NCBI GenBank assembly: GCA_023663945.1
Contig: JAMPGL010000030.1
Coordinates: forward strand, 1 to 49,980
Source of the DNA: Lachnospiraceae bacterium
GTDB taxonomy: Bacteria > Bacillota > Clostridia > Lachnospirales > Lachnospiraceae
Direction of reading: 5' to 3'
DNA length: 49,980 bases
The position numbers and the translations under genes were made by a program. The first letter of the stretch is position 1. Each line of letters begins with the position of its first letter. Below, one piece after another: positions 5,469 through 48,890 of the stretch. The notes below the pieces were generated by a model. That model was not told the origin of the DNA. It was given only the letters and a program-made list of their open reading frames with translations, and did no database searches.

Positions 5469-5509
5469 TATCGCAGATGCTCCTTTCGACTAATTTAATA
5501 TTTGATATT

Positions 5510-5539
5510 ATTATAGCCGAAAATATTCTGTTGAGTCAA
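5510..5539 (-). promoter_or_regulatory. Sigma-70-type promoter for the DUF4143 ATPase
   Basis: On the minus strand TTGACT (5534-5539) and TATAAT (5510-5515) are spaced 18 bp. The start codon is about 42 bp further on. Confidence 0.7.
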
Positions 5540-5667
5540 TACTCAGTATTTTTCTGAAAGCAATCCCCTAATTCCCAATCCTCAACTACTCGCACTGACA
5601 TACTTTTTGCTTGCAAATCTCCACGCAACACCAGGCAGTATCAAAAACACAATGCCATTCCTTCCCG

Positions 5668-9335: not shown

Positions 9336-9408
9336 GTCTGTTCCTCCATGGCTTTGTTGCTATTTATTTTCATTTTACACTAAAAAACCACGATATGGAA
9401 GAAAATAT

Positions 9409-9564
9409 TCATTCAAATACAGCTTCACATGTCAACGGAATATAATTGCTGTATATCCACTCATAACTGCTTTCTTTCGTTACAGCCACAGTTAATGGAT
9501 ATGCATCCTCCATATATCCCTTTAATGGTGTCTCACAAATAATCAAGTTCTTTCTGTTATCCAT
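9409..9564 (-). CDS. 51-residue translationally coupled ORF, unknown function
   Basis: This small gene has a strong start: AGGAGTGAAA directly before ATG, and its ATG overlaps the stop codon of the ABC-2 ATPase (ATGGATAA). The product starts MDNRKNLIICETPLKGYMED and ends YIPLTCEAVFE, with cysteines at 10 and 46 and no signal peptide or membrane segment. I do not recognise a family. In the +1 frame a further short open stretch (NEYFLPYRGFLV) continues after the stop, so it may be the 5' remnant of a longer gene lost when the downstream ABC pair was joined. A RiPP precursor is possible but no maturation enzyme is adjacent. Confidence 0.55.
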   Translation of the reverse strand: MDNRKNLIICETPLKGYMEDAYPLTVAVTKESSYEWIYSNYIPLTCEAVFE

Positions 9565-10592: not shown

Positions 10593-11405
10593 TCAGCTTC
10601 CCGCGCTTTCATATCTTTGCGTTCCGACCATAAACACAATCCCGCCAATCCCAAACATCAATACGCCGATCCCAAAAGTCACCAGTGCCATATTAACAGG
10701 TATGTTTCCCACCAGCTTTCCCAAAAGACTTCCGGCAGGGTAAAAGGTAATCCATCCAAGCGGCAGAAGAAAGGTGAACAGCCACTGGATGGGTCTCGGA
10801 TAGATTGTCAGCGGATACATTGTCACACGATCAAACAGTTCCTTGGTAAAATCCACATATCCCGTAGTGCTCTTTGTCCAAAAAGACAGGGAACCACAAA
10901 TGATCCACACCGCTCCGCGGATCAGCGTCCCTCCGATTACTGTGGCTGCCAGTAATAATATATTCTTCAAGTCACAGTGAAAACGTACATTATAACAGCC
11001 ATAGATAAACACAATCAGCCCCGGAATCAGATCCGATACCCCAATCAGGTTAAAATCCATAAAAAGAAACTGAAAAAGAACATTCATAGGACGCAGTAAA
11101 AACTGATCAAGCTGTCCCCGTATAATAAATTTTCCCATATACCATGTCTGTATAAAGAACATCACCGCCAATCCATGACTAAGAACGGAAAGCCCATACA
11201 GAAAGGACAACTCCTGATACCCCCAGCCTGCCAGCGTCCCAAACTGATCAACCACAAATTTGATTGTGGCAAACCCTACAATAAACTGAATCGGGTTTAC
11301 CAAAACCCAACCCAACAAATTGATTGGATATTCTAAAGACGACTGTGCCGACAACCTCATAAATGCCACCGCCACCGAAAAATAATATTTCATTCTTTTG
11401 CCCAT
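10593..11405 (-). CDS. ABC-2 type permease (COG3694-like)
   Basis: A 270-residue membrane protein with six predicted helices, matching the COG3694 ABC-2 permease pattern (YPINLLGWVLVNPIQFIVGF near the N-terminus; FLLRPMNVLFQFLF in the middle loop, the short coupling region). The start is supported by AGGAGGTGG. It lies 43 bp before the ATPase and 43 bp after the other permease, all leftward, so the three encode one complete transporter with two different permease subunits. Confidence 0.84.
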   Translation of the reverse strand: MGKRMKYYFSVAVAFMRLSAQSSLEYPINLLGWVLVNPIQFIVGFATIKFVVDQFGTLAGWGYQELSFLYGLSVLSHGLAVMFFIQTWYMGKFIIRGQLDQFLLRPMNVLFQFLFMDFNLIGVSDLIPGLIVFIYGCYNVRFHCDLKNILLLAATVIGGTLIRGAVWIICGSLSFWTKSTTGYVDFTKELFDRVTMYPLTIYPRPIQWLFTFLLPLGWITFYPAGSLLGKLVGNIPVNMALVTFGIGVLMFGIGGIVFMVGTQRYESAGS

Positions 11406-34607: not shown

Positions 34608-35441
34608 TTATATAAACGGATTAAAGTAGCGGCTGCCATCCCAGAAAGTCACTACCAAATCTACAATCAAAATCATAAGCACAAAGCCTATAGTCAGCCA
34701 GTCATTCCTTCTCATGGGACGCTTTACATACCAGGTACGCTTCTTTTTCTTGCCGAATCCGCGAAGCTCCATGGCGTTGCTGACCGTCTCAATGCGGTTT
34801 AAGCTTGACAAAATCAGGGGCAGAAGGATTGCCACTGAATTTTTCATTCTGGTAAACAGCTTATCCTTTCCTGACAAATCTATTCCCCGCGCCTGCTGCG
34901 CCTGACTGATATTATGATACTCTCTCTGCACATCCGGTATGTAACGCAGGGCAAGACTGACTGAATATCCCACCCGGTAACTGATCCCGATGCTGGCTAA
35001 GGATGCTGCAAACTCACTGGGGTCTGTACAGGCAATGAACAAAAGCGCCACCGGCACCACACAGATTACCTTCATGGTCATATTCAGATGATAAAATAAC
35101 TGCTGCAGGGTGACCGTATAAGGTCCTGCAATGGTAAAAAGGACTGTCCTGCTCTCATACAAATCCACCCCATACTCAGGCGAAAATAGATACACAAACA
35201 GATTGTTCATGAGAAGAAAGACTGCCGCCAATCCCAGCACAACACTAATATCGCGAATCTTAATCTTGCTGACCTTAAAGACCGCAATGCTGATTAACAG
35301 CATACAGACCAGCACCCTTGTATCGTAAGTCACCATGCTTGCCACGCTCCAGGCTATGAAGAAGATTAATTTTGTAGTTCCCGTCAGCTCGTGCACGAGA
35401 CTTTTCCGCTTAATATAACTTAATATCGCAACTCTCGCCAT
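34608..35441 (-). CDS. ecfT: Energy-coupling factor transporter transmembrane protein EcfT
   Basis: A 277-residue T component of an ECF vitamin transporter. About five to six membrane helices, and the two cytoplasmic coupling motifs with Ala/Leu-Arg-Gly: QAQQARGIDLS and AMELRGFGKKKK, which contact the ATPases. Start at 35441, four bases after the ATPase stop with AGGAGG overlapping it; longer in-frame starts lie inside the ATPase gene. Works with the fused ATPase and the riboflavin-type S component. The last gene of the operon. Confidence 0.88.
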   Translation of the reverse strand: MARVAILSYIKRKSLVHELTGTTKLIFFIAWSVASMVTYDTRVLVCMLLISIAVFKVSKIKIRDISVVLGLAAVFLLMNNLFVYLFSPEYGVDLYESRTVLFTIAGPYTVTLQQLFYHLNMTMKVICVVPVALLFIACTDPSEFAASLASIGISYRVGYSVSLALRYIPDVQREYHNISQAQQARGIDLSGKDKLFTRMKNSVAILLPLILSSLNRIETVSNAMELRGFGKKKKRTWYVKRPMRRNDWLTIGFVLMILIVDLVVTFWDGSRYFNPFI

Positions 35442-35442
35442 C

Positions 35443-37152
35443 CTAACGCACCTCCTTCTTCTCATATCCGATAAAGCATTCTGTAAAGGTCTGAGGCTCC
35501 TTGATCCCACAGGCAAGGCTTAAAGTATACAAACTGGTCTCCTTTAAATTTGCCGCCTGCACCAGCTCTGGGTCGTTTAATACATGCGCCGCCGTGGTGT
35601 CCGCCAGCATTTTTCCTTCACTGAAAACAATCGCACGCTCCGTATATTCCAGCATCAGATGCATGTCGTGCGTAATCATCAGAATCGTGTATCCCTTTTC
35701 GTTCAGCTCCTTCAAAAAGTCCATAATTTCCGTATAATGACGATAATCCTGACCTGCTGTAGGCTCGTCCAAGATAATAACCTGCGGACGCTGGACAAGA
35801 ATACTGGCAATCGTTACCCTCTTCTTTTGTCCAAAAGATAACGCAGAAACCGGCCACTTCCGGAAGGAATACAAGCCGCATACCTTGAGCGTCTCTTCTA
35901 CCCGCGTTTGCCGCTCTTCCTTGGGCATCCCGCTCTGCACCAGCGCCATCTCCACCTCATCCCAGATCATCGGCTTTGAAATCATCTGGTTTGGATTCTG
36001 CATCACATAACCAATCCGTTCCGCCCTCTCTTTGATGGTATCCCCTTCTATATCCCTGCCTTCCATATAAATAGCTCCGGAAACCGGCTTTTCAAAACCG
36101 CAGATCAACTTTGCAAGCGTGCTCTTGCCTGCGCCGTTCCGCCCTACAATACTGACCATTTCTCCCTTGTGGATGGTAAAATTCACATCCTGCAGATTAT
36201 ACTTATCCGGCGTGTAGCCAAAAGTCAGATGCTCCACACGCAGCAGTTCCTCCCCGTGCTGTCCGGTGCGGATTCCCGACTTCTGCGCCTGATACCAGCT
36301 CTGCACCTTTTGCTTATCCTCCGGTTCAAGCACCAGACTGTCCACATGCTCCGGATGCAGGGCTTCACTAATCTCAATGCCGGCATAACGAAGCGCTGTC
36401 AGATAAAGCGGCTCCCTGATTCCGTGCTGTAAGAGCAGATTCCCGGAAAGCAACTTTGCCACCGGCATATCCGCCACAATCTCACCCTCATTCATCAAAA
36501 TAATCCGATCCATCCTGCGCCACAGCACATCCTCCAGCCGGTGCTCGATAATCAGAACCGCCGCTCCCGTACGCTCATGCACCATATCAATCAGCTCGAT
36601 TGCCGACCGCCCTGCCGCCGGGTCAAGATTCGCCAGCGGTTCATCAAACAGCAGTACCTTTACCGCCTCCACCATCACCCCGGCAAGACTGACGCGCTGT
36701 TTCTGCCCGCCGGAAAGCTCTTGGGGCGCATACTCAAGATGATGATCAATGTCCACCAGCCCGGATACCCTCTTTACCATCTCCTTCATCTCATCCTGCG
36801 GAACACAGTCGTTTTCCGGCGCAAAAGCAATGTCTTCGCCCACCGTCAGCCCGATAAATTGTCCGTCCGTATCCTGCAATACCGTACCAACCGCGTGGCT
36901 TAATTCAAAAATACTGCTCTTCTCAGTCTCTATATTGTCCACCAACAGGCTTCCCGTGCTTTTGCCGGGATATGCAAAGGGTATCAGCCCGTTGATGCAG
37001 TTTCCTATTGTGCTCTTGCCGCTTCCAGAGGTGCCTGCAATCAGCACCTTTTCTCCGGGGTATATATCCAGATTAATGTGACGCAGCGTTGGCTCCGCCT
37101 GCGCCATATATTGAAATCCATAGTCCTTAAAAGAAATCACAGGAGATTCCAT
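35443..37152 (-). CDS. ECF transporter ATPase, two fused ABC domains
   Basis: A 569-residue protein with two complete ATPase domains. Domain 1: Walker A GTSGSGKST (40-48), signature LSGGQ (146-150), Walker B LLFDEPLANLDP. Domain 2: Walker A GRNGAGKST (337-345), signature LSFGQ (438-442), Walker B IILDEPTAGQD. The second signature has Phe in place of the first Gly. Such fusions (EcfA-EcfA', YkoD-type) replace the separate A1 and A2 subunits. The terminator at 37196-37230 lies between this gene and the S component, so expression may be lower than that of the S gene. Confidence 0.9.
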   Translation of the reverse strand: MESPVISFKDYGFQYMAQAEPTLRHINLDIYPGEKVLIAGTSGSGKSTIGNCINGLIPFAYPGKSTGSLLVDNIETEKSSIFELSHAVGTVLQDTDGQFIGLTVGEDIAFAPENDCVPQDEMKEMVKRVSGLVDIDHHLEYAPQELSGGQKQRVSLAGVMVEAVKVLLFDEPLANLDPAAGRSAIELIDMVHERTGAAVLIIEHRLEDVLWRRMDRIILMNEGEIVADMPVAKLLSGNLLLQHGIREPLYLTALRYAGIEISEALHPEHVDSLVLEPEDKQKVQSWYQAQKSGIRTGQHGEELLRVEHLTFGYTPDKYNLQDVNFTIHKGEMVSIVGRNGAGKSTLAKLICGFEKPVSGAIYMEGRDIEGDTIKERAERIGYVMQNPNQMISKPMIWDEVEMALVQSGMPKEERQTRVEETLKVCGLYSFRKWPVSALSFGQKKRVTIASILVQRPQVIILDEPTAGQDYRHYTEIMDFLKELNEKGYTILMITHDMHLMLEYTERAIVFSEGKMLADTTAAHVLNDPELVQAANLKETSLYTLSLACGIKEPQTFTECFIGYEKKEVR

Positions 37153-37195
37153 TCTCTTACTCCTTTTCTGTAAAAATTCCTAAAGTCATCTTTTG

Positions 37196-37230
37196 ATAAA
37201 AAGAGCCGTCGCGGCAAAACGACAGCTCTT
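37196..37230 (-). terminator. Terminator between S component and ECF ATPase
   Basis: Minus strand AAGAGCTGTCG(TTTTGC)CGCGACGGCTCTT then TTTATC. It lies 19 bp after the S-component stop and 44 bp before the ATPase start, inside what is functionally one transporter operon. Confidence 0.8.
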
Positions 37231-37248
37231 AATCATTTTTGTTATCGA

Positions 37249-37791
37249 TTAATCTTCCTTATTCAGGGAACCCTTCTTTACAACCGTCTTAGCATACGCA
37301 AATAACAGAAGCGTGCCTACAATACCGGTTGTAAGCATGTTTGCAATACCTGCCACAAGACCCTGTGCAAATAACTTTTCAATCGGCTCTGAATAAATCA
37401 GAATATCCAGACAAGGTGCAACAAGCCCCCATGCCAGCAGATGTGCAACAATCTGTGCAACATTAAAATGAATCATCTTCTTAACATCGATTCCCTCATT
37501 GATGTCCAGCTTCAATGTCGCAAAGCCGATTACAAGACCTGCAAAAGCAGACGCAATAATCCAGCTCCACCAAGGGCCATAACTGGTTGCATCAATCAGC
37601 GTGTGACCGATAAATCCAATCAGCAGACCTGCTATAGGTCCAAATAATGTTGCAAATACCGCCTGAATTGCATACTGAAGGCTGATGTAAGTATTCGGAA
37701 CCGGCGTGGGAATTGAAATCTTCCCTAAAACAAAAAATAAAGCTGCACCGATACCGATTGCAACAACACTTTTAACAGATAGTTTCTTCAT
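37249..37791 (-). CDS. ECF-type riboflavin transporter substrate-binding (S) component, UPF0397-like
   Basis: A 180-residue S component with six helices: the N-terminal SVKSVVAIGIGAALFFVLGK including the alanine-rich AAxxxV coupling surface, then YISLQYAIQAVFATLFGP, GFIGHTLIDATSYGPWWSW and C-terminal GLVAGIANMLTTGIVG. This matches UPF0397, annotated as riboflavin-type ECF S proteins. It forms a transporter with EcfT and the fused ATPase downstream. GGGAGGAG precedes the ATG. No FMN riboswitch is visible upstream, so regulation by flavin is not supported by sequence. Confidence 0.85.
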   Translation of the reverse strand: MKKLSVKSVVAIGIGAALFFVLGKISIPTPVPNTYISLQYAIQAVFATLFGPIAGLLIGFIGHTLIDATSYGPWWSWIIASAFAGLVIGFATLKLDINEGIDVKKMIHFNVAQIVAHLLAWGLVAPCLDILIYSEPIEKLFAQGLVAGIANMLTTGIVGTLLLFAYAKTVVKKGSLNKED

Positions 37792-38053: not shown

Positions 38054-38320
38054 TTACCTTTTTCCAGCATCTATCCAGCCGTAATTCCGAAGTTCTGTTC
38101 GAAAGGCGCTTCTTCTGGAATATTTATCCTTATATGATGTCATAAGCCGTTGTTTTGCTCCCGCATCTCCCATAGATTCCCGCACCTCGCCCAAAGCCGC
38201 AATGTGTGCTGCACATTCCCCATAATAGTTTCGCCGGCTTGCTTCCATAATACCTTCCGTCCGCTTTTCAATCAGAGCTGTTATCTTTTTTACAGCACGT
38301 TCCCTGACTTCCGTATTCAT
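38054..38320 (-). pseudogene. Probable C-terminal remnant, 88 codons, unknown
   Basis: An open stretch encoding a basic helical peptide (starts MNTEVRERAVKKITALIEKR, ends RNYGWIDAGKR). Its end pattern, tyrosine/arginine-rich with SRRSAFRTELRNYGWI, looks like the C-terminal helix of larger proteins such as SWIM-domain or related Clostridia proteins. No ribosome site precedes the ATG and the frame closes seven codons upstream. It lies directly behind the point where the restriction gene is cut by repeat D2, so it is best read as a fragment left by rearrangement. Confidence 0.4.
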
Positions 38321-38340
38321 CTGTACGGAGTTTTTCCATT

Positions 38341-39369
38341 TTAAAAATACTTGACGGAGTCAAATACCCCGTAGCAAGCTGACGGGGCATCAAACTTGTA
38401 ACGCAGCAAGCTGCGGGGTATTTGACCCTCGCGGCAGTCGTCAAGGTCATGCAAGCATGACTTTGACTCGTTGCTCACGGGAATAAAAACAGCCTTCTTT
38501 GCATTTTCTCCCAATACCTGCTGAAGCTCCAGCTTCCTCTGCGGTGTAATCGGGTTAGATGTATGATACGCCTCTATAAGGTAAATCCAGTCTTTTTCAA
38601 GGGAATATGCAACCACGTCCGGCAAAATGCTTTGTGTCAAATCTGAAAGTCCAATTTCCGTCAGTTTTTCTTTTTCATGTATCAATTCATACTTGTTGTC
38701 CGAATCCCCACAGTACAAAAGAAGCGCTCCATACCCGAAACGCGGAAGCAATTCCTCTATAATTTGTTTTTGAATCGCGTTATGCTCTCCGTCTCTTAAA
38801 TGGATTTGCCTGCCGTCAGGCGTATGCACAGTCAATTTAGGAATCTCCCTTTTCGCTGATACCCTTTTTTGGTATGTAAGATACATTTTGTTAAACGCTT
38901 CTACCTGTGTAAACCAGTCAGACTGCCCATAGTTCTTAATAATCCGTGAATATTCGCTATTAATCTTATACCCCCTTGTCGGATTGCTTGTATTGAAACC
39001 CGGTTTTGAATTGACCACTATAGCAGCTAAAAGCAATCTTGCCAAATCTTTTCTTTTAATGTCATCATAAGAGCCGTTGCTGATGTTTTCCTCAAAATAT
39101 TGGTTTTCATAGGCAATAATTTCACGAGTAGTAAGCGAATAATCGTAATTAGAATCTTTCATTTTCTTCCAGCCGGCCGATGTTTTCACATCTCCCACCG
39201 CCAAAAATGCCATAGCCATTTTCTCCTTTTGCCTTTCCGTTAAATCATCTATCGGAACGCCAAGCACTTCAATGATTTGCAATGATTGCCGAATCAATTT
39301 CTGGACTTTTTCGGATTTCCCATTGAATGTCCGGTAATCAATTGTTGGCAATGTTTTATAATCCATCAT
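38341..39369 (-). CDS. BsuBI/PstI-type restriction endonuclease, C-terminus replaced by repeat
   Basis: A 342-residue protein matching the BsuBI/PstI restriction family: N-terminal helical/winged domain (1-190, with LTERQKEKMAMAFLAVGDVK) and the nuclease core with D251 (ILPDVVAYS) and E266 (IYLIEAYHTSNPITPQRK). In the family the next block reads roughly VFVTAFPDR followed by about 50 residues. Here the sequence breaks at residue 296 into repeat D2, giving a foreign tail SNESKSCLHDLDDCREG and onward to the stop. The last catalytic and structural elements are therefore missing and the enzyme is probably inactive. GGAGGAGG precedes the start, which overlaps the methylase stop by 14 bp. Confidence 0.8.
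   Translation of the reverse strand: MMDYKTLPTIDYRTFNGKSEKVQKLIRQSLQIIEVLGVPIDDLTERQKEKMAMAFLAVGDVKTSAGWKKMKDSNYDYSLTTREIIAYENQYFEENISNGSYDDIKRKDLARLLLAAIVVNSKPGFNTSNPTRGYKINSEYSRIIKNYGQSDWFTQVEAFNKMYLTYQKRVSAKREIPKLTVHTPDGRQIHLRDGEHNAIQKQIIEELLPRFGYGALLLYCGDSDNKYELIHEKEKLTEIGLSDLTQSILPDVVAYSLEKDWIYLIEAYHTSNPITPQRKLELQQVLGENAKKAVFIPVSNESKSCLHDLDDCREGQIPRSLLRYKFDAPSACYGVFDSVKYF
38359..38484. repeat. Double-hairpin repeat element, copy D2 (inside restriction gene)
   Basis: 126 bp, from GTCAAATACCCCG to the GGGAAT boundary. Sequence almost identical to D3. On the minus strand it reads ATTCCCGTGAGCAACGAGTC onward and is open in the frame of the restriction gene, contributing about 42 codons before the stop at 38341. 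Confidence 0.92.
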
Positions 39370-40332
39370 GTTCCTCCTCCAAACAATGAATAACTGCTTT
39401 TGCTAATTTATAAGCAAATATCGGCGGCACAGCATTCCCTATCTGTGTAAACTGGCTTTCTTCTGTACCCGTAAATTCAAACCAGTCTGGAAATCCCTGC
39501 AAACGCGCAGCTTCGCGGACTGTAATCCGCCTCCTGCGCCCATCCGGAAGTTTAATTCTATGCATATCGCTTGTAGAGCCCGCAAGATTTCGGCATGTTA
39601 ATGTCCGCGCCGGTCTGTCAAGATGCAGATCTCTGAGATTCTTGCACTTGGATGCCGCCTCATACTTGGCTATATATTCATCCATAGACGGGGTCAGAAA
39701 TGCGGCATTTACAGGTATCTCTGTTGCCATACTGCCTAACGCTTCCCCTGCTGTTGCTTTATAATCATTCGGTTCAGGAAATTCAAACCGACCCCGATGC
39801 CCAACAATTACCAATCTTTCCCTATTCTGCGGAACATCATACTGAACCAATTGAAAAATACGGTATTCCACTTCATAGCCTAATTCTTTAAATTGCCCAA
39901 TAACAGACTGAAAATACTCTGCATTTTGTTCAGGAAGGCCCTTTACATTTTCGCACAGCCAAATCTTAGGCTGCACACGTTGAACGGCTTCTATAAATGC
40001 CGGGAAGCCGTTTCTCGCATCATTTTTCCCTTTTTGCTTTCCCCGCCTGCTAAACGGCTGACATGGGGAACCTCCAATAATAATATCTGCATATGGAAAA
40101 TCTGAATTTTCATCTATTACTTTCTGGTTGCATTCTGATTTTAGATTTTTTTGTATGTATCGCAGCAATCCCCAACCATCTCGTAGCCAATCGTTTTTAC
40201 TCCGGCAGACTCAAAACCAAGGGATAATCCACCACAACCTGCAAACATATCAATCGCCTGATAATGTTGAATGGGTGGTATGCATATTGTTTCATTCAAA
40301 TATTCTACATAATCATTATATGGTTTTGACAT
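39356..40332 (-). pseudogene. C5 DNA cytosine methyltransferase, frameshifted in an A7 tract
   Basis: The partner methylase of the restriction gene. Frame 1 (40332 down to 40141) has MSKPYNDYVEYL and motif I IDMFAGCGGLSLGF, ending CDTYKKI-stop. The other frame (to 39356) carries motif IV GGSPCQPFSRRGKQKG, motif VI ENVKGLP, motif VIII QNRERLVIVG, motif IX RPARTLTCRN and TVREAARLQGFPDWF, and motif X QIGNAVPP. Adding one A to the A7 run at 40146-40152 restores a 325-residue enzyme reading CDTYKKNLKSEC. All catalytic motifs are intact, so this is a fresh mutation, a phase-variable switch, or a sequencing error. GGAGA precedes the start. Confidence 0.85.
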
Positions 40333-40578: not shown

Positions 40579-40923
40579 CATTTCCGCTTTGGCACTACGC
40601 TTAGAATCTCTAATATATTGAATATTCCTATCAGTTCTATCTGCAAGGATAATCCATATGACGATATTGAGACATTACCGGTACTTCCATCTGATAGTGA
40701 AAAGCGGAATATTGACAGCCATAAAAACAGTTACATATCAGACCGCACCGCCCACATACTCAAAAAATTCGACTACACAGAGCTGCCTATGGTAGATGAG
40801 TTGATTGCTGATCTATATGTGCTAGATGACACTACAAGACGAGACCTCTTTGAATATACAAAAATGTTAAAGAAAAATCATACCTCTCCTAAAAGGACCG
40901 CTGATTTGAAGGAGATAAAATAG
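40579..40923 (+). pseudogene. Degenerate fragment, possibly a regulator C-terminus
   Basis: An open stretch without a proper start codon (only TTG at 40618, no ribosome site). It encodes LNIPISSICKDNPYDDIETL and later LKKFDYTELPMVDELIADLY and DDTTRRDLFEYTKMLKKNH. Just upstream another frame reads SKAIINNCYDISALALRLES then stops, which looks like the first helices of an XRE-type DNA-binding domain displaced by a frameshift. I cannot assign a family firmly. It is divergent from the methylase gene, where R-M controller genes are often found. Confidence 0.35.
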
Positions 40924-40949
40924 GAGTCAAAACAAAAAATAAATTACAA

Positions 40950-41003
40950 TTACTCAATAATAGACGCAACCCTGCCTGGTCCAACAATCCTGCCACCCTC
41001 ACG
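40950..41003 (-). pseudogene. 54-bp remnant of the tuf (EF-Tu) 3' end, copy 2
   Basis: Read on the minus strand it encodes REGGRIVGPGRVASIIE and a TAA stop. EF-Tu ends REGGRTVGSGRVATIIE or very close in Firmicutes. Upstream of the first R the frame no longer resembles EF-Tu (TEN). Thus exactly the last 17 codons plus stop are kept. It lies 226 bp past the stop of the AlbA_2 ATPase gene 41229-42650. Confidence 0.8.
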
Positions 41004-41178
41004 GTTTTCTGTTATAGGAATCATTGTGTTTTGGGATGATTTTCAGGGCATTTTCGGTGATTTTTTGTCTGATATACGCCTTGTATCTGACGTTTTGGAA
41101 ATTTTTGTTATCATGGTGTTATCACAGAGCAAACCCCCGATGTCCTCTATCCTCAAATCTTTATAGTCTTTTTGTTTT

Positions 41179-41222
41179 ATCTTAACCATATCCTAACCAT
41201 TTTGGTCAGGATATGGTTAAGA
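41179..41222. repeat. 44-bp palindrome at the 3' end of an AlbA_2 ATPase gene
   Basis: ATCTTAACCATATCCT(A)ACCA TTT TGGT(C)AGGATATGGTTAAGAT, nearly perfect, seven bases past the stop codon. No U-run follows on the minus strand, so it is not a normal terminator. Part of it (CCATATCCTGACCATTTTGG) recurs inside the gene at 41411-41430. Confidence 0.8.
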
Positions 41223-41228
41223 TCATTT

Positions 41229-42650
41229 CTACGAATAATATTTTTGATTCCTGCTTGACGGCTTATCGGGTATGGTCATTTTTAATGTTCCATCTTCCAG
41301 CATTTTCTGTAAATAATTTCTTCTAAAACTTGTTCTGCTCTTAAGTCCACAATATTCCATAATCTCCATGATTGATTTAGGTTCCCTGCAAAAATCAATT
41401 ATCATCCTATCCATATCCTGACCATTTTGGTTAAGATGACGCCCCTCCTTGTCATTATTTCCCACTGCTAAAGCATCCTCCATATCTTTTGCGCCATAAT
41501 TCAGATTCTTGAATATCAGCCAAAAATCACTGTTGCCCGACTTAAATTCCGGTTTCATATCTTCTGTGTAATGTTCTTGAAATTCATAAGAATCCAAAAT
41601 TTTCTTGAATCCACTTCCTCTGCGATCCATGTAATTTAACCGATTAAATATATCTGCAATAATAGGATTTCTTCTCTTTGATGACACATTTCGCAAGTCT
41701 AAATTCTGTACCTTGCTCCCATCTGGCATTCCACCCGGCGAATAAATCTCAAGCCTGTCATCAAACATATCTATATGAACTTCGCTTCCCAGCTCCAAGT
41801 AATCCCTGTGGATAATGGCATTGACAATCCCTTCCAATATAGCATCATCCGGATAATCCGGCATTTCAATTCTTCCGTGTCCCGTTTTTCTCCACGCCTT
41901 CTTTGTATTCCTTGCGACAAACTTGACACTATCCTGTAAAAGATTTACCAAACCGCCACTATATTCTTCATCATCAATGGCATCCATTAGTCCATGTGCC
42001 TTATCCAAACCATTCCAACGAGTGCAGAATACTCTCGAATGGCGTATTGGTGATTCATCTGCCAACAATGCGCCCGCATTCGTAAGATTGCCTCTTTCAT
42101 CTAAAATTCCCCAGGACTCATAGTCACTATCCTCAAAGTTCTTTCCAGTATTATACTTATAAACAGAACGCAGCTTTGTGAATGCCATATTTTCAAAATC
42201 GTATTCTGAAACAAGGCTGTCATAAGAGCGATTTGTTCCTTTGAGAACTAATCGTTTCAACGTAATATTGTCTGCCGGAACACTTTCATTGCCCAATCGG
42301 ATATACGCTGTACGATTCCCTTCACCTACATAGTAATAAGGTGTTTCCTTCCCCGCATACACATCAAGAAGAATCAATTTTTTATTATCTTCCAGATGAA
42401 AACGCAGGTTTACATTTGGCATTGAATCAATTTTCGTTTTAATTGTTTCACTTATAAACTCCGCATCCGATTCCGCATTTTCTAATCCAACAACTTCATC
42501 ATCGTTCGTAATGCCCCAAATCAAAGTGCCGCCAAAGCTGTTAGCAAATGCGCTGACGCTTTTTAGCCAGCTTTTGGTCTGCTTTCTTTCAACCATCTGC
42601 TTCTTGTCGTATTCCGTTGCCTCTCCAATCAGCTCTTTTATATTAAACAT
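41229..42650 (-). CDS. AlbA_2 (Schlafen-like) / GHKL-ATPase protein
   Basis: A 473-residue protein of the family often labelled ATP-binding protein or RecG-related. N-terminal AlbA_2 nucleic-acid-binding domain (about 10-125): E-x-K-x-like EYDKKQMVERKQT, SVSAFANSFGGTLIWGITND, AYIRLGNESVPAD. Central linker 150-250. HATPase_c_4 domain (about 265-390): ILEGIVNAIIHRDYLELGSEV with the N-box Asn, YSPGGMPDG and RRGSGFKKILDSY. C-terminal winged helix (410-473). Such genes are common in defence islands. It is intact, unlike most neighbours, has GGAGAA before ATG, and is followed by a palindrome and a tuf remnant. Confidence 0.85.
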   Translation of the reverse strand: MFNIKELIGEATEYDKKQMVERKQTKSWLKSVSAFANSFGGTLIWGITNDDEVVGLENAESDAEFISETIKTKIDSMPNVNLRFHLEDNKKLILLDVYAGKETPYYYVGEGNRTAYIRLGNESVPADNITLKRLVLKGTNRSYDSLVSEYDFENMAFTKLRSVYKYNTGKNFEDSDYESWGILDERGNLTNAGALLADESPIRHSRVFCTRWNGLDKAHGLMDAIDDEEYSGGLVNLLQDSVKFVARNTKKAWRKTGHGRIEMPDYPDDAILEGIVNAIIHRDYLELGSEVHIDMFDDRLEIYSPGGMPDGSKVQNLDLRNVSSKRRNPIIADIFNRLNYMDRRGSGFKKILDSYEFQEHYTEDMKPEFKSGNSDFWLIFKNLNYGAKDMEDALAVGNNDKEGRHLNQNGQDMDRMIIDFCREPKSIMEIMEYCGLKSRTSFRRNYLQKMLEDGTLKMTIPDKPSSRNQKYYS

Positions 42651-42706
42651 CCGGTTCTCCTTCTTAAAGGTAAATCACTTAATTTCTTTTTTCATTTTTA
42701 TCTTTC

Positions 42707-43216
42707 CTATCTGCGCGCTTTAAAACTATACTCCTTCTTCAATCTCTCAAAAATCTCAGACGCCACCGGACAGATTTCTATCACATCCAATACACGCAAC
42801 AGACTTGATAATCCCTCCGGCTGGTCGGTATATGGATATTTTTTACAGCTATCCGGTTTACAATCTCCCAATTTACAATTTTCATCTTCCTGCAAGAAAT
42901 CGCATGGCATATGCTTAGTCTGATAGTTCATATCATATTCTTCTTTTTTCAAATATTCATTAATAAATTGTTCTGGTGTAATTTCCAAGTATTTCGCATC
43001 TCCTTCAATATCCTCTGCCGGAATACTTCCTTGATACATCTTACAACAGTTTCTGCATTTACTGCAATCATAGTCAGCAAATGATTCCTTATGCAATCGC
43101 AAAAACTGCTTGTCTAACTCATCTTCATCAGCATGATTCTTTAAATAAGTGCGGAACTTAAAATTTTCGGTCTCTCCTTTCTTGGCTTCTGATCTTACTT
43201 TATCTGGTTGTATCAT
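42707..43216 (-). CDS. YkgJ family cysteine cluster protein
   Basis: A 169-residue protein with the YkgJ/FliB-type cluster: CSKCRNCCKMY (C51, C54, C57, C58) and a second set in PCDFLQEDENCKLGDCKPDSCKKYP. The family probably binds zinc or an Fe-S cluster; FliB-type members are linked to lysine methylation and others to maturation tasks. Start at 43216, placed eight bases after GGGAG. It lies between the AlbA_2 gene and the truncated DGQHR gene and appears intact. Confidence 0.8.
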   Translation of the reverse strand: MIQPDKVRSEAKKGETENFKFRTYLKNHADEDELDKQFLRLHKESFADYDCSKCRNCCKMYQGSIPAEDIEGDAKYLEITPEQFINEYLKKEEYDMNYQTKHMPCDFLQEDENCKLGDCKPDSCKKYPYTDQPEGLSSLLRVLDVIEICPVASEIFERLKKEYSFKARR

Positions 43217-43389
43217 TATCATCGCTCCCAAAAGTATCCATCAAGTACTCTTATCTATATATTTTCCAATTCTCTGTAACCATACTCAAGCATTCTTTAT
43301 ACATAATTAGAAATGCTTGTTTACATCCTGTTTAAATAAGTTGCTATTGTTATATTAAATTGGCTTTCTGCTGATTATCTGACTCAATA

Positions 43390-43974
43390 TCAACAATGCT
43401 TGCGTAGCTCTGAGTCAAATACCCCGTAGCAAGCTGACGGGGCATCAAACTTGTAACGCAGCAAGCTGCGGGGTATTAGACCCTCGCGGCAGTCGTCAAG
43501 GTCATGCAAGCATGACTTTGACTCGTTGCTCGCGGGAATAAAAATAACCGGAACTCTCTCTGATTCTAAATCCGGATTTATCTCGAGAGCTTTTTTAATA
43601 CCCGCAACTCGATGCTGTCCATCCACTGGAAAAATCTTCTCTTCTCCTGTTAATGTCAATATACCTAAATTATAAGTATCACTGCTGTCAACATCATCTA
43701 TCCGCACTTCATTCCATACCGGCTGTCCATTATAAACAGCAAGTATCAATGCGTTAAAAAATCTTTCTTCTTGTGTTACTAAATAATTCGCAATACTTTC
43801 ACTATTTTCTGATATACTTTTTTGCATCATCTGACTCAGCATCTCTGATTTATGTAATTCATCATATATAGGATTAATATAATCAATCACTTCTCTAAAA
43901 CTCAAGGTCCCCACATAATACACCCAAACTCCCATTTTTGATCTGACAGCTGGTACTTTCAATAGTTTATTCAT
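43390..43974 (-). CDS. DGQHR-domain (DndB-like) protein truncated by repeat D3
   Basis: The first 147 residues match the DGQHR/DndB family of DNA-modification-associated proteins: KVPAVRSKMGVWVYYVGTL, then the signature FPVDGQHRVAGIKKAL (DGQHR at 118-122) and ERVPVIFIP. Full members run to about 350 residues. Here repeat D3 enters after VIFIP and supplies SNESKSCLHDLDDCREG and onward, the same tail as in the restriction gene at 38341, then a stop at 43390. More than half of the protein is missing. AGGAG precedes the start. Confidence 0.82.
   Translation of the reverse strand: MNKLLKVPAVRSKMGVWVYYVGTLSFREVIDYINPIYDELHKSEMLSQMMQKSISENSESIANYLVTQEERFFNALILAVYNGQPVWNEVRIDDVDSSDTYNLGILTLTGEEKIFPVDGQHRVAGIKKALEINPDLESERVPVIFIPASNESKSCLHDLDDCREGLIPRSLLRYKFDAPSACYGVFDSELRKHC
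43414..43539. repeat. Double-hairpin repeat element, copy D3 (inside DGQHR gene)
   Basis: 126 bp with the same two hairpins as D1 and D2 and the same orientation and reading frame as D2 relative to its host gene. It differs from D2 by only a few bases, for example TATTAGAC in place of TATTTGAC. Confidence 0.92.
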
Positions 43975-43998
43975 GATTATTCTCCTAGCTCAAATTGC

Positions 43999-44616
43999 TC
44001 ATTTCTTTGCCAGCACATTAATCCACCTCTCATTTTCCCTGCCTTTACGGACATCCTATGTCATAAAAATATCCTCTATTAAGAAACCGTTGTTTGACAA
44101 AAGATTTTTTAACAGAACTTCCTCGTAATCATAAAACAACCTGCCCTTGTCACTTCTCATGCCTTTTCCATATTTAAAAGAAGCATAAAGTATCCCCTCA
44201 TCCTTCAAGGCATCCCAAAATCGTTTTAACACCCCGCCTATTTCCAGATAAGAAATATGCAGGAGAGACGCACATGCCCATACCCCGTCAAACTCCTGTT
44301 GAAACTGCATTTCCTCAAATCTTATGCAAAAAACATCTTGCTTTATTAACTTCTCTGCCTCTTCACATATTTTCTTTGAAGCATCCAATGCTGTTACTTG
44401 ATAACCGGCGTCTAAAAACGCTCTTGCATCCCGTCCGCTTCCACATCCCGCATCTAAGATATGAATTTTTGATTTTTCACGTTCTTTTATTTTAATATGG
44501 TTTTGCTTCGCCAAAAAATCCAGAAATTTATCCCTGCAAAAACTCATATCAGCATCTTTTGTTGCCTGACAAAACTCTTCGGCATTTTTGTCATAATAAG
44601 ATATTGTTTGATTCAT
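43999..44616 (-). pseudogene. Class I SAM-dependent methyltransferase with premature TAG
   Basis: A small Rossmann methyltransferase: motif I LDAGCGSGRDARAFL (about 53-67), motif II VTALDAS, and LHISYLEIGGVLKRFWDALKDEG. The frame meets TAG at 44056-44058 after IFMT, but reading through gives DVRKGRENERWINVLAKK and TGA at 43999, exactly the expected C-terminus of this family (T-Q-DVR...W.NVLA.K). A single CAG to TAG change explains it. Restored length 205 residues; the current product is 186 residues and lacks the last strand. Its start overlaps the HNH gene end by 26 bp. Confidence 0.8.
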
Positions 44617-45729
44617 TATTATCCTTTACATCCTTGTAAATCCAATCCTTAAATCCACAATTTTTTGCAGATTGATATACCGGCTGCAAAATTTCTTCCA
44701 ATGCGCCGGAAAATTTTATAAAGTCCTGTCCTTTTTGATAAATTTTTCTCCGCACTGTGCTGTCGTTTAAATGCTCTTTTGCACATTTTTCAAATTCATT
44801 ATGCAGGGCATCATATTTCCACATCATCTCATAAGAAATAAATTCCAATTTTGCAAACTGTGGGAAGTAAATATTCCAATCCGGGAGATTATTGTTCTTA
44901 CTGCTGTTAATGCTCCGTGTTGTAGGGTGCAAATTCCAAAATTCATCATGAGCCACATATGACCATGGCACAAAATGGTCAATTGAAATGTCTTTATCGG
45001 ACAACTGTACATGCCCGTATATTTCGCAAATCGGCTGGACTTCCAGCAACAGCTTCCAGTATTTTTTAACTTTCTCTAACTTCCGCTCCCCGGGCGGATA
45101 AAGCTTATCTGCAATTCCCGGAACGCTGGGATTGCGTTTTTGTAAGTATCTAATAATATTATATTGCAGCCACCCCTTTATAATCTCCTGATTCTGTTGG
45201 ATATATGTAAGCCACTCCGGATTAAATCGTATAACAGTCTGCATACCGTTTAGTGCATCAAAATAATACATTAATCTTCGTTCTCGATTGATTTTAGAAA
45301 TAAGCGCACTTTCCGACACATCCCATTCTTTTCCTTTTACCTTATCCATAAAGGGAGCTTGAATACGGTATGGAACGTTTCTTGTCAGCGTTCTCTTTCG
45401 CTTTATGACTTCTTTATCCGTACAATTTCTTAAATAGTCAATAATATTTTCTTTTTTTCTGAAGATTTCAACTGCGATATTTGCTGTAAATAAAGAACCA
45501 AGCTTTCCAAAGTATCTCTGGGACCCAGATTCAAATGATATTCAATTACCATATACCATGCGTCTGCAATCATCTCATCAACCAATTCTTCATAAGTCAC
45601 ATATTCTTTACCTTCCAGCACTTTTGAGACAATTGCCTGAAACCAAAAGAATTTGTAGCATTCGCTTGTATTGTCAAATATTCGGCTTAAATATTGAATT
45701 TCTAAAGTATCGGAATATGGCAGCTGCAT
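44591..45729 (-). pseudogene. HNH endonuclease, frameshifted in an A7 tract
   Basis: Two frames belong together. The first (45729-45430) encodes MQLPYSDTLEIQYLSRIFDN and ends KSSEKKKILLTI-stop. The second carries NIIDYLRNCTDKEVIKRKRT, then MDKVKGKEWDVSESAL and the HNH core ISIDHFVPWSYV with NLHPTTRSINSSKNNNLP. One added A in the A7 run 45452-45458 gives KKENIIDYLRN and a 379-residue protein. The nuclease residues are intact. A restart at the ATG 45349 could still yield the HNH part (252 residues). It precedes the methyltransferase, suggesting a nuclease/methylase pair. Confidence 0.8.
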
Positions 45730-45882
45730 TTGGATTACCTTTTGCTTTTTAAAATTATCTGTATTCTTATCTCCATCAAGGTTAATATTACAATTTGTCT
45801 ATCAAGCTTGACTCTTCTTTAATTATACTATAGTAAGCGGTTGTTCAACAACAATTATATTTAATCTGCATCTTTTTCCAAA

Positions 45883-45916
45883 AAAATATCCCGCCAATTT
45901 CCGGACGGGATATTTC
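45883..45916 (-). terminator. Rho-independent terminator
   Basis: Minus strand ATATCCCGTCC(GGAAATT)GGCGGGATAT followed by TTTTTTTGG. It would stop leftward transcripts coming from the HepT/MntA side before the HNH gene. Confidence 0.8.
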
Positions 45917-45931
45917 ATCTTAATTGATGAC

Positions 45932-45977
45932 TCGATAAATCTTGGGTAGCCCTTGGATACACTTGGGTCAATTTATC
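45932..45977. repeat. Phased nonamer array, orphan copy
   Basis: CTTGGGTAG (45941), CTTGGATAC (45952) and CTTGGGTCA (45962), spaced 11 and 10 bp, between GATAAAT (45934-45940) and ATTTATC (45971-45977). Related to the arrays at 47322 and 49412, but here no gene adjoins it. Confidence 0.75.
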
Positions 45978-45993
45978 TTCATCATTTGTCTGT

Positions 45994-46020
45994 AAATCGT
46001 CAGCCAATGGCTGGCGATTT
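45994..46020. repeat. Palindrome P1
   Basis: AAATCG(T)CAGCCA A TGGCTG(G)CGATTT, 27 bp, followed about 10 bp later by ATCATTAAC. It is a second copy of the palindrome at 48967-48987, which is followed by the same ATCATTAAC. Confidence 0.8.
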
Positions 46021-46307
46021 AGTTGCAGCATCATTAACTTACAGGTTCATTGGCAGCTACGCCTAAGTGGACTTTCACCACAGAACACAAACATGCCCGT
46101 CATACCAGAAAATCCCCGTGCTGCTAACGGCACGGAGATCATCATTATAGTATCATATTCATAATATATAGTTGCAAAGATATCTTATACGTTCTAAGTT
46201 CATTGAATCACAGCTATCTTTTCATCGTAAGTCTCCCACCATATAAATCAATATCAATCTTATATTCTCAAATTCACTTAATTTTCTCCTCATTTATCAA
46301 ATAAACA
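46021..46307. other. Intergenic remainder before HepT
   Basis: Holds a small hairpin CCGTGC(TGCTAACG)GCACGG near 46119-46138 and GTGGACTTTCACC at 46067, but no ORF or recognised RNA. Part of the 578-bp gap 45730-46307. Confidence 0.35.
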
Positions 46308-46604
46308 TTACCTCTGGCACGAGACATCTGTAGCATTATGCGCCTCTCCCGAATTCACGCCTTCATAATCATGCACGATTCGATTTCTCAAACCGTATAT
46401 CTGAATCCATGGAATTTCCTTATGAGTTGCCCGGTACTCACTGTCAATTTTACCAGCCAACTCACCCAACTGACTCAAATTGAATACACAGGCCTCCATT
46501 ATCACTTCCTGCTTTATAAATGTATCATAATCCATACCCTGTGTATATTTTAACACTTTTTCAATGTATCCCAACATTTTTCCGATAATCACATCATTTT
46601 TCAT
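46308..46604 (-). CDS. HepT-like ribonuclease toxin, C-terminally truncated
   Basis: A 98-residue HepT-family protein. The catalytic RX4HXY motif is RNRIVHDY (R73, H78, Y80), where Y80 is the residue AMPylated by MntA in characterised systems. Normal members continue after EGVN with about 20-30 residues of helix (for example LVW..I..DLP.L). Here the sequence switches to SGEAHNATDVSCQR and stops, so the last helix is lost. Start overlaps the MntA stop. HepT cleaves tRNA 3' ends when unmodified; whether this shortened form is toxic is unknown. Confidence 0.8.
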   Translation of the reverse strand: MKNDVIIGKMLGYIEKVLKYTQGMDYDTFIKQEVIMEACVFNLSQLGELAGKIDSEYRATHKEIPWIQIYGLRNRIVHDYEGVNSGEAHNATDVSCQR

Positions 46605-46896
46605 ACATCAATACTCCCGTCCTTTGAATTTCCAAATCAATTTTAGATCCTTTTTCCACATGAGTAATGTCGAAAATATCTACATCTTTATCCACGGCTG
46701 CCCGAATAGCTTCAATCAGTCCAACAAAGCGCAGCCCTTTCAGATCGCTGTCTACCAACAGATCAATATCGCTTTCTTCCGTTGCACTGCCTTTTCCATA
46801 AGAACCGAAAAGAACGGCTCTCCTTATTCTATTATCTACAAAAACGGGAATCAGTTTTTCTTTTAGCCGGTCAATCGTATATATAGTATCTGACAT
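46594..46896 (-). CDS. MntA-like minimal nucleotidyltransferase antitoxin
   Basis: A 100-residue MNT-type nucleotidyltransferase with the GSX10DXD motif complete: GSYGKGSATEESDID (31-45), and a third acidic residue in VDIFDITH. It is the antitoxin of the HepT/MntA type VII system, adding AMP to HepT. It overlaps HepT by 11 bp, in the antitoxin-first order usual for the family. A promoter lies at 46923-46951. Confidence 0.87.
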   Translation of the reverse strand: MSDTIYTIDRLKEKLIPVFVDNRIRRAVLFGSYGKGSATEESDIDLLVDSDLKGLRFVGLIEAIRAAVDKDVDIFDITHVEKGSKIDLEIQRTGVLMYEK

Positions 46897-46922
46897 ATTT
46901 CAAATATCCTTTCTTTTTTCTT

Positions 46923-46951
46923 ATTTTATCCTATCCGGTTTTCAATTACAA
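46923..46951 (-). promoter_or_regulatory. Promoter for MntA/HepT
   Basis: TTGTAA (46946-46951), 17 bp, TAAAAT (46923-46928), 26 bp before the MntA start codon; AAAGGATATT is the ribosome site. Confidence 0.6.
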
Positions 46952-47084
46952 CATAAACAGCAAAAGGGCATTCAGAAGCCTTTCCCCTTCGTTGTCATAT
47001 GCGCGCTCTCTGAACACTTTATTTGAAATAAGGTCAAATTACTGAAAACAAGGTCACGCCCCCAAAATCTCCCATTTTAGAGTC

Positions 47085-47120
47085 AAAAAAAGAGGCTTCC
47101 CGAAACCTCGGAAAGCCCCA
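47085..47120 (-). terminator. Terminator behind tuf remnant 1
   Basis: Minus strand GGGGCTTTCCGAGGTTTCGGG then AAGCCTC and TTTTTTTGACTC: a strong stem and U-run, 22 bp past the TAA of the tuf remnant. It could be the original tuf terminator carried along or left behind. Confidence 0.8.
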
Positions 47121-47141
47121 TAAAATCCAGCTTTTTACTGA

Positions 47142-47195
47142 TTATTCAATGATGTTAGCCACACGGTCTGACCCAACAGTCCTGCCACCCTCACG
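47142..47195 (-). pseudogene. 54-bp remnant of the tuf (EF-Tu) 3' end, copy 1
   Basis: Minus strand encodes REGGRTVGSDRVANIIE and TAA, 15 of 17 residues as in typical EF-Tu. Before the first R the frame has a stop within two codons, so the similarity begins at exactly the same codon as in copy 2. It lies 190 bp past the stop of the AlbA_2 ATPase gene 47385-48890. Confidence 0.82.
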
Positions 47196-47321
47196 TTGCT
47201 ACGGCGAGTTACTATGCATTGCAAACCTTGATAAAATGGGGATTTTTTTATTTGTATTATCCTCAATTACGGCTTATTTTTCTGGTTATTGAAAATTTTA
47301 GAAACATTTTAAAAGCACGAG

Positions 47322-47384
47322 CTTGAATAAATCTTGAGTAAACCTTGGATAACCTTGAGTAAATTTACTCAAGATTTACTCAAG
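47322..47384. repeat. Phased nonamer array abutting an AlbA_2 ATPase stop codon
   Basis: Direct nonamers CTTGAATAA (47322), CTTGAGTAA (47333), CTTGGATAA (47344), CTTGAGTAA (47354), then inverted TTACTCAAG (47365, 47376). Spacing is 10-11 bp. The last one touches the TAG at 47385-47387. Confidence 0.85.
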
Positions 47385-48890
47385 CTATTCCGCCATCTTC
47401 TTATACTTCTTCCCTTTGGTGCTGCCTGTACTCTCAATCAGCCCTTGTTCCGTCATATCCTTAAGCAAAACTTTAACTCGCGATTCTTTAACACCAACAA
47501 TGCTTTCAAATTCAGCGGCTTTATACCATTGATCAGGCTGCATGGCATTCAAAATAGCATCATATTTCTCCTGCGTTTTTTTCGTCACTTTTTTTTCGCC
47601 ACTTTTTTTCGCCACTTTTTTTTCGCCACTTTTTTTCGCCACTTTTCCTAAAAAAGAAAGCGTCAGTACCGTTCTATCCGGATCAAATCTTTCTTCAATT
47701 ATCGGTTCTTCCCATCCTTCATCTGCCCAAATATTGAAGATATTCGGCACACCGCTTCCGGCGCGTTCTCCAATGTTGATGAGATTAAACATTTTCATAA
47801 GAGCCTTATTTCGAGGATCGGATTCGCCACCCATACGCATCTGCTTTTTCCCTGTTCTCACATAACCGGGATTTGCCAAAATCAACTTGTCCGGCTCTTT
47901 TTTGATTACAACACCACGCAAACCATGATAATCTGCATTAATCAGGCAATTTGCCAACGCTTCCCGAAGCGCCTTGTGTACCGGAGTATCGTCAATACGC
48001 TCGCCACCCGACATTTTAAACGGCACTTTAACATCTTTGATAATTTTGTTATAAACCCTGAAATAAAAATCGCACACATTTCCAGACCATTCACCGGAAC
48101 TGGACTGCAATCTGTCACTCCAGCGTGTGGCAGGATCTGACTCTTCTCTGTAATCCAAGAAATACTCTGGGAAATGTCTCACGATGTTGTACTCATCCCC
48201 AAACATCAACATACCTGCTGCCGTAGGATGCAGTTCGCCGTCTTCTTCCGAAATCGCAGCCGCGCCAATGCTTCGTAAATATTCGTGATCACTCAAGCGT
48301 TCAAATGGATGTCCTTCCTTTAATGAACGATGGCTGTTGCGATATCCATGAATGGTATCATAATTCAAATCTTCCATAGAAATCTTATCCAGCACTTCCA
48401 TATCCACCGTTCGCTCTGTTTGGTCTCGAAGCATGGTCTTTACTTGTAATCTGGTACAATGATAATCTCCCTCATAATTTCTACGGAAAGTACCACTGAA
48501 AATATCATCGTTAATATACACTGGTTTCTGCTCTCTCTTTGCCATAGGTACATAAATGACCATAATGACATCTTTACTGTCACCAATTTCATAAGTCTGC
48601 ACATCGTCTTCCGATAACAGATTGATATTTACTTTCTTAGAGTTATTAATGGTGTCCCAAAATTCCTTGCGGAGCTTTGAGGCATTCTGAAGTCCTGTCG
48701 TTTTCCAACTGCCATCCTTTTCTTCTTTGACACCAAGAATAATAACACCGCCATAACAGTTGGCAAAAGCTGAATAAGTGTCCCATAAGGAAATTGGCAA
48801 GCCACCTCTTGCTTTTTTCACTTCTCTTCTGTTGTCTTCTCTGTATTCATCAAATTGTGAAAGATCAAAAACATTTGCCAATGCACTCAT
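47385..48890 (-). CDS. AlbA_2 (Schlafen-like) / GHKL-ATPase protein with repeat linker
   Basis: A 501-residue relative of the 41229 protein. AlbA_2 domain about 15-150 (EDNRREVKKA, AFANCYGGVIILGVKEE, GTFRRNYEGDYHCTRLQV). Helical middle 160-290. HATPase_c_4 about 300-400 (LREALANCLINADYHGLRGV, LANPGYVRTGK, GERAGSGVPNIFNIW). A lysine-rich linker with tandem SGEKKVAK units (about 418-440) joins a C-terminal winged helix (450-501). Intact. The stop adjoins a nonamer array; palindrome P2 sits 77 bp before the start, a likely operator. The A/T runs in the linker (T7-T8) make it prone to slippage. Confidence 0.84.
   Translation of the reverse strand: MSALANVFDLSQFDEYREDNRREVKKARGGLPISLWDTYSAFANCYGGVIILGVKEEKDGSWKTTGLQNASKLRKEFWDTINNSKKVNINLLSEDDVQTYEIGDSKDVIMVIYVPMAKREQKPVYINDDIFSGTFRRNYEGDYHCTRLQVKTMLRDQTERTVDMEVLDKISMEDLNYDTIHGYRNSHRSLKEGHPFERLSDHEYLRSIGAAAISEEDGELHPTAAGMLMFGDEYNIVRHFPEYFLDYREESDPATRWSDRLQSSSGEWSGNVCDFYFRVYNKIIKDVKVPFKMSGGERIDDTPVHKALREALANCLINADYHGLRGVVIKKEPDKLILANPGYVRTGKKQMRMGGESDPRNKALMKMFNLINIGERAGSGVPNIFNIWADEGWEEPIIEERFDPDRTVLTLSFLGKVAKKSGEKKVAKKSGEKKVTKKTQEKYDAILNAMQPDQWYKAAEFESIVGVKESRVKVLLKDMTEQGLIESTGSTKGKKYKKMAE
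47575..47645. repeat. 24-bp tandem repeat in the AlbA_2 protein linker
   Basis: Two and a half copies of TTTTTCGCCACTTTTTTTCG-type units (plus strand) encode AKKSGEKKV twice and TKK. Each unit contains T7 or T8. Confidence 0.85.

Follow-up and report, generated by a model that had tools for sequence, protein, structure and literature searches.

The window considered here, 49,980 nucleotides from the genome of a Lachnospiraceae bacterium (assembly GCA_023663945.1, contig JAMPGL010000030.1), is the whole of a contig labelled C31 and carries, on its minus strand, two 54-bp copies of the 3′ end of tuf, the gene for elongation factor Tu (EF-Tu); such ends are referred to below as tails, and as orphan tails where no tuf precedes them. 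Copy 1 (40950..41003, read from 41003 to 40950) translates as REGGRIVGPGRVASIIE and copy 2 (47142..47195, read from 47195 to 47142) as REGGRTVGSDRVANIIE, each followed by a stop codon. In a similarity search of EF-Tu against the window with E values up to 10, residues 379-395 aligned at copy 1, and at copy 2 an alignment of 40 residues was obtained at 50% identity, with 15 of the 20 matches lying within the last 17 residues and the extra stretch before them holding about 5 matches in 23 residues and crossing a stop. The remaining two matches in the window (E 4.7 and 4.9) are at chance level, and no EF-Tu was found upstream of either copy in this search. In-frame stops occur upstream of both copies, with the frame and the stop intact within both. 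Thus, two observations of a first-pass annotation of this DNA hold: both copies encode the EF-Tu C-terminus with its stop, and the similarity, in effect confined to the last 17 residues, begins at one codon with no EF-Tu before it. A 13-mer common to both copies has two exact matches in the window, and with up to 2 mismatches it has 6, against a mean of 1.09 in shuffled sequence. A shared terminator upstream of the HNH gene pointed to a degenerate third tail near 45935-45975; this candidate was rejected, its best match being 15-16 of 33 bases and lower than scores elsewhere in the window.

The sequences on either side of the two copies recur elsewhere. Copy 1 is preceded by a right arm of type R4 (41004..41124, −), 83% identical to a copy on contig C22 of the same genome over 144 bp including part of the tail, and copy 2 by a right arm of type R5 (47196..47335, −; boundary approximate), which is also conserved immediately before the tails of G009 (L062) and L191; each of the two arms has counterparts in other genomes that extend for more than 100 bases. 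Copy 2 is followed by a left end of type L1 with a terminator-like hairpin, as judged by eye (47082..47141, −), a type that in other genomes likewise follows tuf or a tail. The DNA after copy 1 (40618..40949, −) is homologous to that directly after the intact tuf of the relative G008, the match running from 40949 to approximately 40600 and including the remnant of a convergent XRE-type regulator gene (40618-40923, +). Copy 1 and G008 match from the CGT codon through the stop and on into the gene that follows, with one gap of approximately 100 bases, and the left sides differ, with arm R4 in the one and tuf in the other. No second tail was found within 14 kb downstream of tuf in G008, which has a pre-insertion-like arrangement relative to copy 1.

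A 177-bp query from the C22 tail was searched against 60 genomes (the source genome, 35 of its genus, and 24 of other families) and matched 16, all within the genus, with some matches being true tuf ends; the absence of matches outside the genus carries little weight because the tuf ends of those genomes were also unmatched. A Pfam search located an intact tuf in 13 of 18 chosen genomes of the genus, and in five genomes (G014, G032, G030, G031, and G022) a further tail follows tuf on the same strand at a distance of approximately 4.7 to 9 kb. In G014, tuf (500-1687) is followed by a 9-kb element with an integrase gene (5275-6348) and then by an orphan tail (10684-10737). The integrase has Arm-DNA-bind_4, SAM_3, and Phage_integrase domains (Pfam), and the element also encodes an HD-domain protein, an XRE-type regulator, an AAA_25 ATPase, and a protein whose match to Mob_Pre falls below the Pfam cut-off. 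A protein in G032 matches Mob_Pre at E 3e-12, and its relatives adjoin the integrase in, for example, L071, L105, L107, and L111, with none found beside the integrase in L106, L113, and L117. Furthermore, several relatives have a second integrase beyond the first displaced tail, and in L154, L158, L173, L175, and L199 integrases lie on both sides of a tail. In G291, a single contig with 7 bases of tuf before its end, two integrase-AAA_25-Mob modules are separated by a tail, with the right border of the second module outside the sequence seen. In addition, on scaffold KE159638.1 of Lachnospiraceae bacterium A2 (L212 and L163), tuf and tuf-type tails with integrases were observed to span approximately 48 kb, of which two ends were read.

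The linkage between this integrase and tuf ends is also seen across the family. When the G014 integrase was searched against 299 genomes of the family (E up to 1e-90, with at most 6 candidates scored per genome), 21 matches had at least 56% identity and the remainder at most 51%; tuf or an orphan tail was present at all 19 of the examined neighbourhoods among those 21, namely 17 regions, one with two integrases, plus G028 (G086:C74 and G332:C51 were left out). No tail was found in 20-kb regions around relatives of 48% (L122) and 46% (L146) identity. In short windows of approximately 2.7-4.1 kb, a tail was present in 11 of 18 loci at 56% identity or above and in 0 of 12 at 46-48%, and among viral-contig loci with integrases of 25-47% identity one of 28 has a tail. 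A plasmid search returned four integrase relatives, all of only 40-44% identity. In a further set from named genomes, the best 79 of 251 relatives, in which loci were found by the integrase alone, a tail or tuf end was present at 71 of the 79 loci, with an intact tuf end at 52. The records are titled Lachnospiraceae, Clostridia, uncultured bacteria, or genera that we take to lie within or near Lachnospiraceae. All 99 tails (96 distinct contexts, since loci on one contig overlap) are on the strand of the integrase, tail and integrase start are a median of 1.2 kb apart (72 cases), and 26 distinct stretches of 6.1-12.3 kb are bounded by two tails as direct repeats and contain one family integrase each. 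In a FastTree phylogeny of 138 integrases, for which the program warned of long branches elsewhere in the tree, 96 are separated from the others by a branch with support 98, and 83 of those 96 have a tail nearby. Residues R196, K219, H295, R298, H321, and Y331, presumably the catalytic residues of a tyrosine recombinase, are invariant in 16 integrases. A second type of integrase, of approximately 40% identity and in reversed orientation, adjoins left end L7 in L065, L068, and L193.

Comparison of these loci reveals a regular order in which each tail has either tuf or a right arm (R1, R2, and so on) as its left neighbour and a left end (L1, L2, and so on), often with a terminator-like hairpin as judged by eye, as its right neighbour. 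Arm types tend to pair with integrase types: the 98-100% integrases have arm R2 wherever the end was seen, the 74-77% integrases arm R3 (and R8 in L106/L168, one element in two records), and the 60-63% integrases in many cases arm R1 and in four R6. Arm R4 precedes 8 tails, two in the source genome and the others in relatives and named genomes. EF-Tu is absent from the 18 codons upstream of 68 distinct orphan tails; of the 77 distinct tuf-labelled ends, 71 follow an open frame that spans 370 codons or more, the other 6 are interrupted where the locus stops, and no end belongs to a shorter remnant. The orphan tails mostly keep the amino-acid sequence and the stop, with decayed ones in G030, G022, and G028.

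A single crossover point for all elements was sought among 145 distinct tails and not found. Among tail pairs with a common right arm, mismatches are close to background from position 12 onwards; a common left end goes with fewer mismatches towards the 3′ end; and position 6 follows both arm and left end, a pattern that is perhaps one of genus. For the 98-100% integrase type, block 12-21 goes with arm R2 (8/10 versus 21/58, p 0.015) and block 31-38 with left end L3 (11/15 versus 20/79, p 0.0006), with the reverse pairings giving p 1.0 and 0.26; these pairings therefore suggest exchange at approximately positions 22-30. This crossover estimate for the 98-100% type is exploratory because the blocks were picked after inspection and the second test used a subset, the 94 tails beginning CGTGAGGG.

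Overall, the two 54-bp blocks are, very probably, displaced 3′ ends of tuf (attR-type scars in the case of copy 1) left behind by site-specific integration of mobile elements, as had been proposed at first pass. In the mechanism that these arrangements suggest, a tyrosine integrase would recombine the attachment site of the element, holding a version of the last 18 tuf codons with the stop included, with the 3′ end of tuf; the element would thereby supply a new EF-Tu C-terminus together with its stop, to which several types would add a terminator-like hairpin, and the old tuf end would be displaced to the far side of the element. Later elements would re-integrate at tuf, giving head-to-tail stacking. 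The succession of tuf, integrase element, tail, and second integrase in relatives agrees with the proposal that elements integrated one after another at the end of tuf, and the integrase expected in longer versions was found, for example, in G014 and at the named loci with tails. That the family integrase itself performs this reaction is a prediction from its linkage to the tails. The window would thus keep two insertions, one ending at copy 1 (R4) and one ending at copy 2 (R5). With two queries for the integrase family and with queries for AAA_25 and Mob, no match was obtained in the window at E 1e-3, so that genes of this integrase family and transfer genes of this type are absent at that threshold. 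Because the sequence seen contains no integrase of the family, the window insertions look like decayed or non-autonomous elements in a stack, comparable to cis-mobilizable elements (CIMEs). The stretch 41004-47141 is bounded by copy 2 and left end L1 on one side and by copy 1 and arm R4 on the other; the contig includes just one border, the right one, of the element that ends at copy 2.

Several observations weigh against this account. The source assembly contains no tuf, and the junction is not visible there. Among the five tuf-to-tail intervals in relatives, only that of G014 has a family integrase, and those of G032, G030, G031, and G022 have none. No family integrase was found upstream of the 8 R4-arm tails (1.2-16 kb examined; 1.2 kb for one). 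The pairing of arms with integrases has exceptions, namely L215 (62%, R2), L207 (63%, R18), L192 (69%, R3), and L106/L168, with several arms seen once, and across element types no clean link joins the middle of the 54 bp to either arm. Eight of the 79 named integrase loci have no tail: L159, L170, L172, L198, and L202 are contigs of 3.5-7.4 kb, and L211 is the G028 contig, on which tuf is 10.3 kb away; L178 and L195, in which neither a left end nor an R3 arm was found on searching, are tail-less without explanation. Finally, among three small faecal "Bacteriophage sp." records whose integrases are of 61-64% identity, only L258 has a tail, as does one of two viral contigs with a 59-60% integrase.

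Some of these loci are of interest in their own right. The integrases of L178 (10001-11041) and L195 (10001-10945) are 73% identical, form their own branch, and lie in sequence that, as far as seen, shows neither a tuf end nor a tail; their target site has perhaps changed. L258 (MT839393.1), a 4.3-kb human faecal Bacteriophage sp. record, contains arm R9, a tuf tail, left end L6, and a 62% integrase within 198-2476; it may derive from a circle or an array junction, the record being deposited as linear and the pairing of its arm types not being established. In the viral contig L232 (9923-11185), an orphan tail and an R6-like arm adjoin an integrase of 42-43% identity encoded on the other strand, a hint that tuf may serve a prophage-like element as well.

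Of the alternatives, the one that survives best accepts integration at tuf and differs on the nature of the window cassettes, which would be non-autonomous elements with their own arms R4 and R5, moved in trans by resident tuf-site integrases, and not decayed autonomous elements. It is in keeping with the recurrence of R4 in 8 tails with no linked family integrase and with the occurrence of the HNH, methyltransferase, and CxxCxxCC genes together with the R4 arm twice in the source genome, on C22 and C31. However, one of those tails has just 1.2 kb of upstream sequence, an integrase of 21% identity adjoins the C22 cassette (no systematic search for integrases outside the family having been made), and gene order varies, with the G022 tail lying between the methyltransferase and CxxCxxCC genes, so that decay and recombination would fit equally; trans-mobilisation of the cassettes is thus a possible but doubtful reading. 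Somewhat less probable still, and unlikely, is a broader proposal in which the tuf 3′ end would be an integron-like platform in Lachnospiraceae, with an essential gene as anchor, several integrase types adding elements, and non-autonomous R4/R5 defence cassettes captured, stacked, and reshuffled in trans, each event rewriting the last EF-Tu codons.

The remaining alternatives concern the origin of the tails themselves. Since tuf is often duplicated in bacteria, and since frame and stop are intact at both copies, the blocks could be remains of a tuf duplication or of a front-truncated tuf pseudogene; such an origin is very improbable, given that the match to G008 begins at the CGT codon and continues past the stop into the downstream gene, that the tails are preceded not by decaying tuf but by varied arms recurring across genomes, and that no intermediate remnant occurs among the 68 orphan tails and 77 tuf-labelled ends. 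Indeed, the first-pass proposal had been held open to refutation by a full tuf pseudogene in relatives or by random placement of the block, and the absence of shorter remnants on the one hand and the linkage of orphan tails to element arms and integrases on the other speak against both. That the tails are functional, for example as a short EF-Tu C-terminal peptide serving as a decoy or sensor in phage defence, is barely credible, the mostly kept amino-acid sequence and stop being explained by displacement of a real tuf end, and in-frame stops lying upstream of both window copies and some tails being decayed.

With displacement by integration as the preferred account, the question arises of where tuf lies in the source genome. 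Nothing right of the window is present in the assembly because the window is the whole contig. Comparison of the junctions with an intact tuf, as suggested at first pass, was achieved only in relatives, none being found in the 3.7-Mb source assembly. In G032, contig C59 carries on a single strand an ECF gene (8693-10399), tails at approximately 27.9 and 31.4 kb, and tuf (38276-39460), and in the window the ECF gene (35446-37152), copy 1, and copy 2 are ordered and oriented in the same way. The order in G032 is ECF-tails-tuf, and tuf would therefore be expected right of the window on the minus strand, possibly with contig C22 between, where it would not be visible because the contig ends and tuf is unassembled. 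The ECF gene occurs in 8 of 37 genus genomes at the cut-off used, and a contig carrying it together with tuf was located in G032 alone.

Contig C22 carries a third orphan tail plus one partial tail. When copy 2 was used as the query against the 3.7-Mb genome, copy 1 was recovered at E 7e-5 and the third copy, C22:56340-56394, at E 6e-9. Between the C22 and C31 cassettes, the shared genes are 82-87% identical and the R4 ends 81% identical at the DNA level, and the genes between differ. The left border of the C22 cassette is a partial tail (approximately positions 24-54) adjoining a 412-aa tyrosine recombinase. This recombinase resembles those of Tn916/Tn1549-type integrative and conjugative elements (ICEs), a label assigned from gene content, and differs from the tuf-site integrase in being only approximately 21% identical to it and in belonging to an element whose left end is off the contig. 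In C22:49214-50664 (L011:9215-10664), it stands at the end of what is presumably a long conjugation-type gene set and directly adjoins the partial tail, which begins at approximately core position 24. It looks as though the tuf site had likewise been used or hit by a large conjugative element.

Integrative and mobilizable elements (IMEs) with tyrosine integrases are known to use the 3′ ends of tRNA and housekeeping genes, and tandems arise when they decay to CIMEs and integration then occurs anew (PMC5704250). The tuf-linked integrase family and its accretion site are the same kind of system as this known IME/CIME accretion. Like IMEs, the elements described here have a single tyrosine integrase, small size, a Mob-type protein in several cases, and head-to-tail tandems, and leave the target gene intact since the element carries its end (PMC5704250); like CIMEs and ICESt1-type accretion, they include att-flanked stretches, free of integrase and transfer genes, stacked with elements at one gene end (PMC5704250). 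Unlike in the reviewed IMEs, the target is tuf, with neither "elongation" nor "EF-Tu" occurring in the main text of that review (PMC5704250), and unlike in ICESt1-type arrays, many arm types are present at one site and any mobilisation is putative. Neither "elongation" nor "tuf" was matched by word search in two streptococcal surveys (PMC4701971, PMC5357655). In Enterococcus faecium U0317, the transferable esp pathogenicity island has one of its ends downstream of tuf; according to the authors of that report, the island had originally inserted downstream of rpsI and was rearranged later (PMC2858755). That island is like the tuf-site elements in adjoining tuf at one end and unlike them in that no tuf-specific integrase or displaced tuf end is described in the parts of the report consulted (PMC2858755). 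The literature searched on tuf and EF-Tu, which was mostly non-subscription, yielded no description of tuf as a dedicated target of an integrase; the site may be described elsewhere.

These results name an integration hotspot across a major gut family, at the end of the gene for an essential and very abundant bacterial protein, together with a defined integrase family with a predicted site, and offer a case of mobile elements repeatedly replacing the coding end of EF-Tu. Integration at tuf would also explain a variable region with defence-type genes, and the orphan 54-bp tuf end provides a simple marker for element borders in draft genomes. The findings may also bear on drafts that lack tuf or have contig breaks beside it.

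The window genes listed below, all on the minus strand, are arranged around these borders. Adjoining arm R4 is a cargo gene with Schlafen AlbA_2 and HATPase_c_4 domains (41229..42650), followed by genes for a CxxCxxCC protein, a DndB-like protein, a methyltransferase, and an HNH_4 protein (42707..45729), parts of which are in the C22 cassette at 82-87% DNA identity, and by a HepT-like and nucleotidyltransferase gene pair of toxin-antitoxin type (46308..46896). Adjoining arm R5 is another Schlafen AlbA_2/HATPase_c_4 gene (47385..48890), a 90% identical protein being encoded downstream of tuf and an integrase in G005; arm R5 was sought beside that gene in G005 and not found. Beyond copy 1, the last tail, lie genes for a BsuBI/PstI-type endonuclease and a C5-cytosine methylase (38341..40168) and then, as the chromosomal flank downstream of the array, genes that we take to encode an ECF transporter (34608..37791). 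The DndB-like open reading frame (ORF; approximately 43390-43520) and the restriction endonuclease ORF (approximately 38341-38470) have near-identical protein ends (NESKSCLHDLDDCREG...PRSLLRYKFDAPSACYGVFDS), a repeat at two gene ends.

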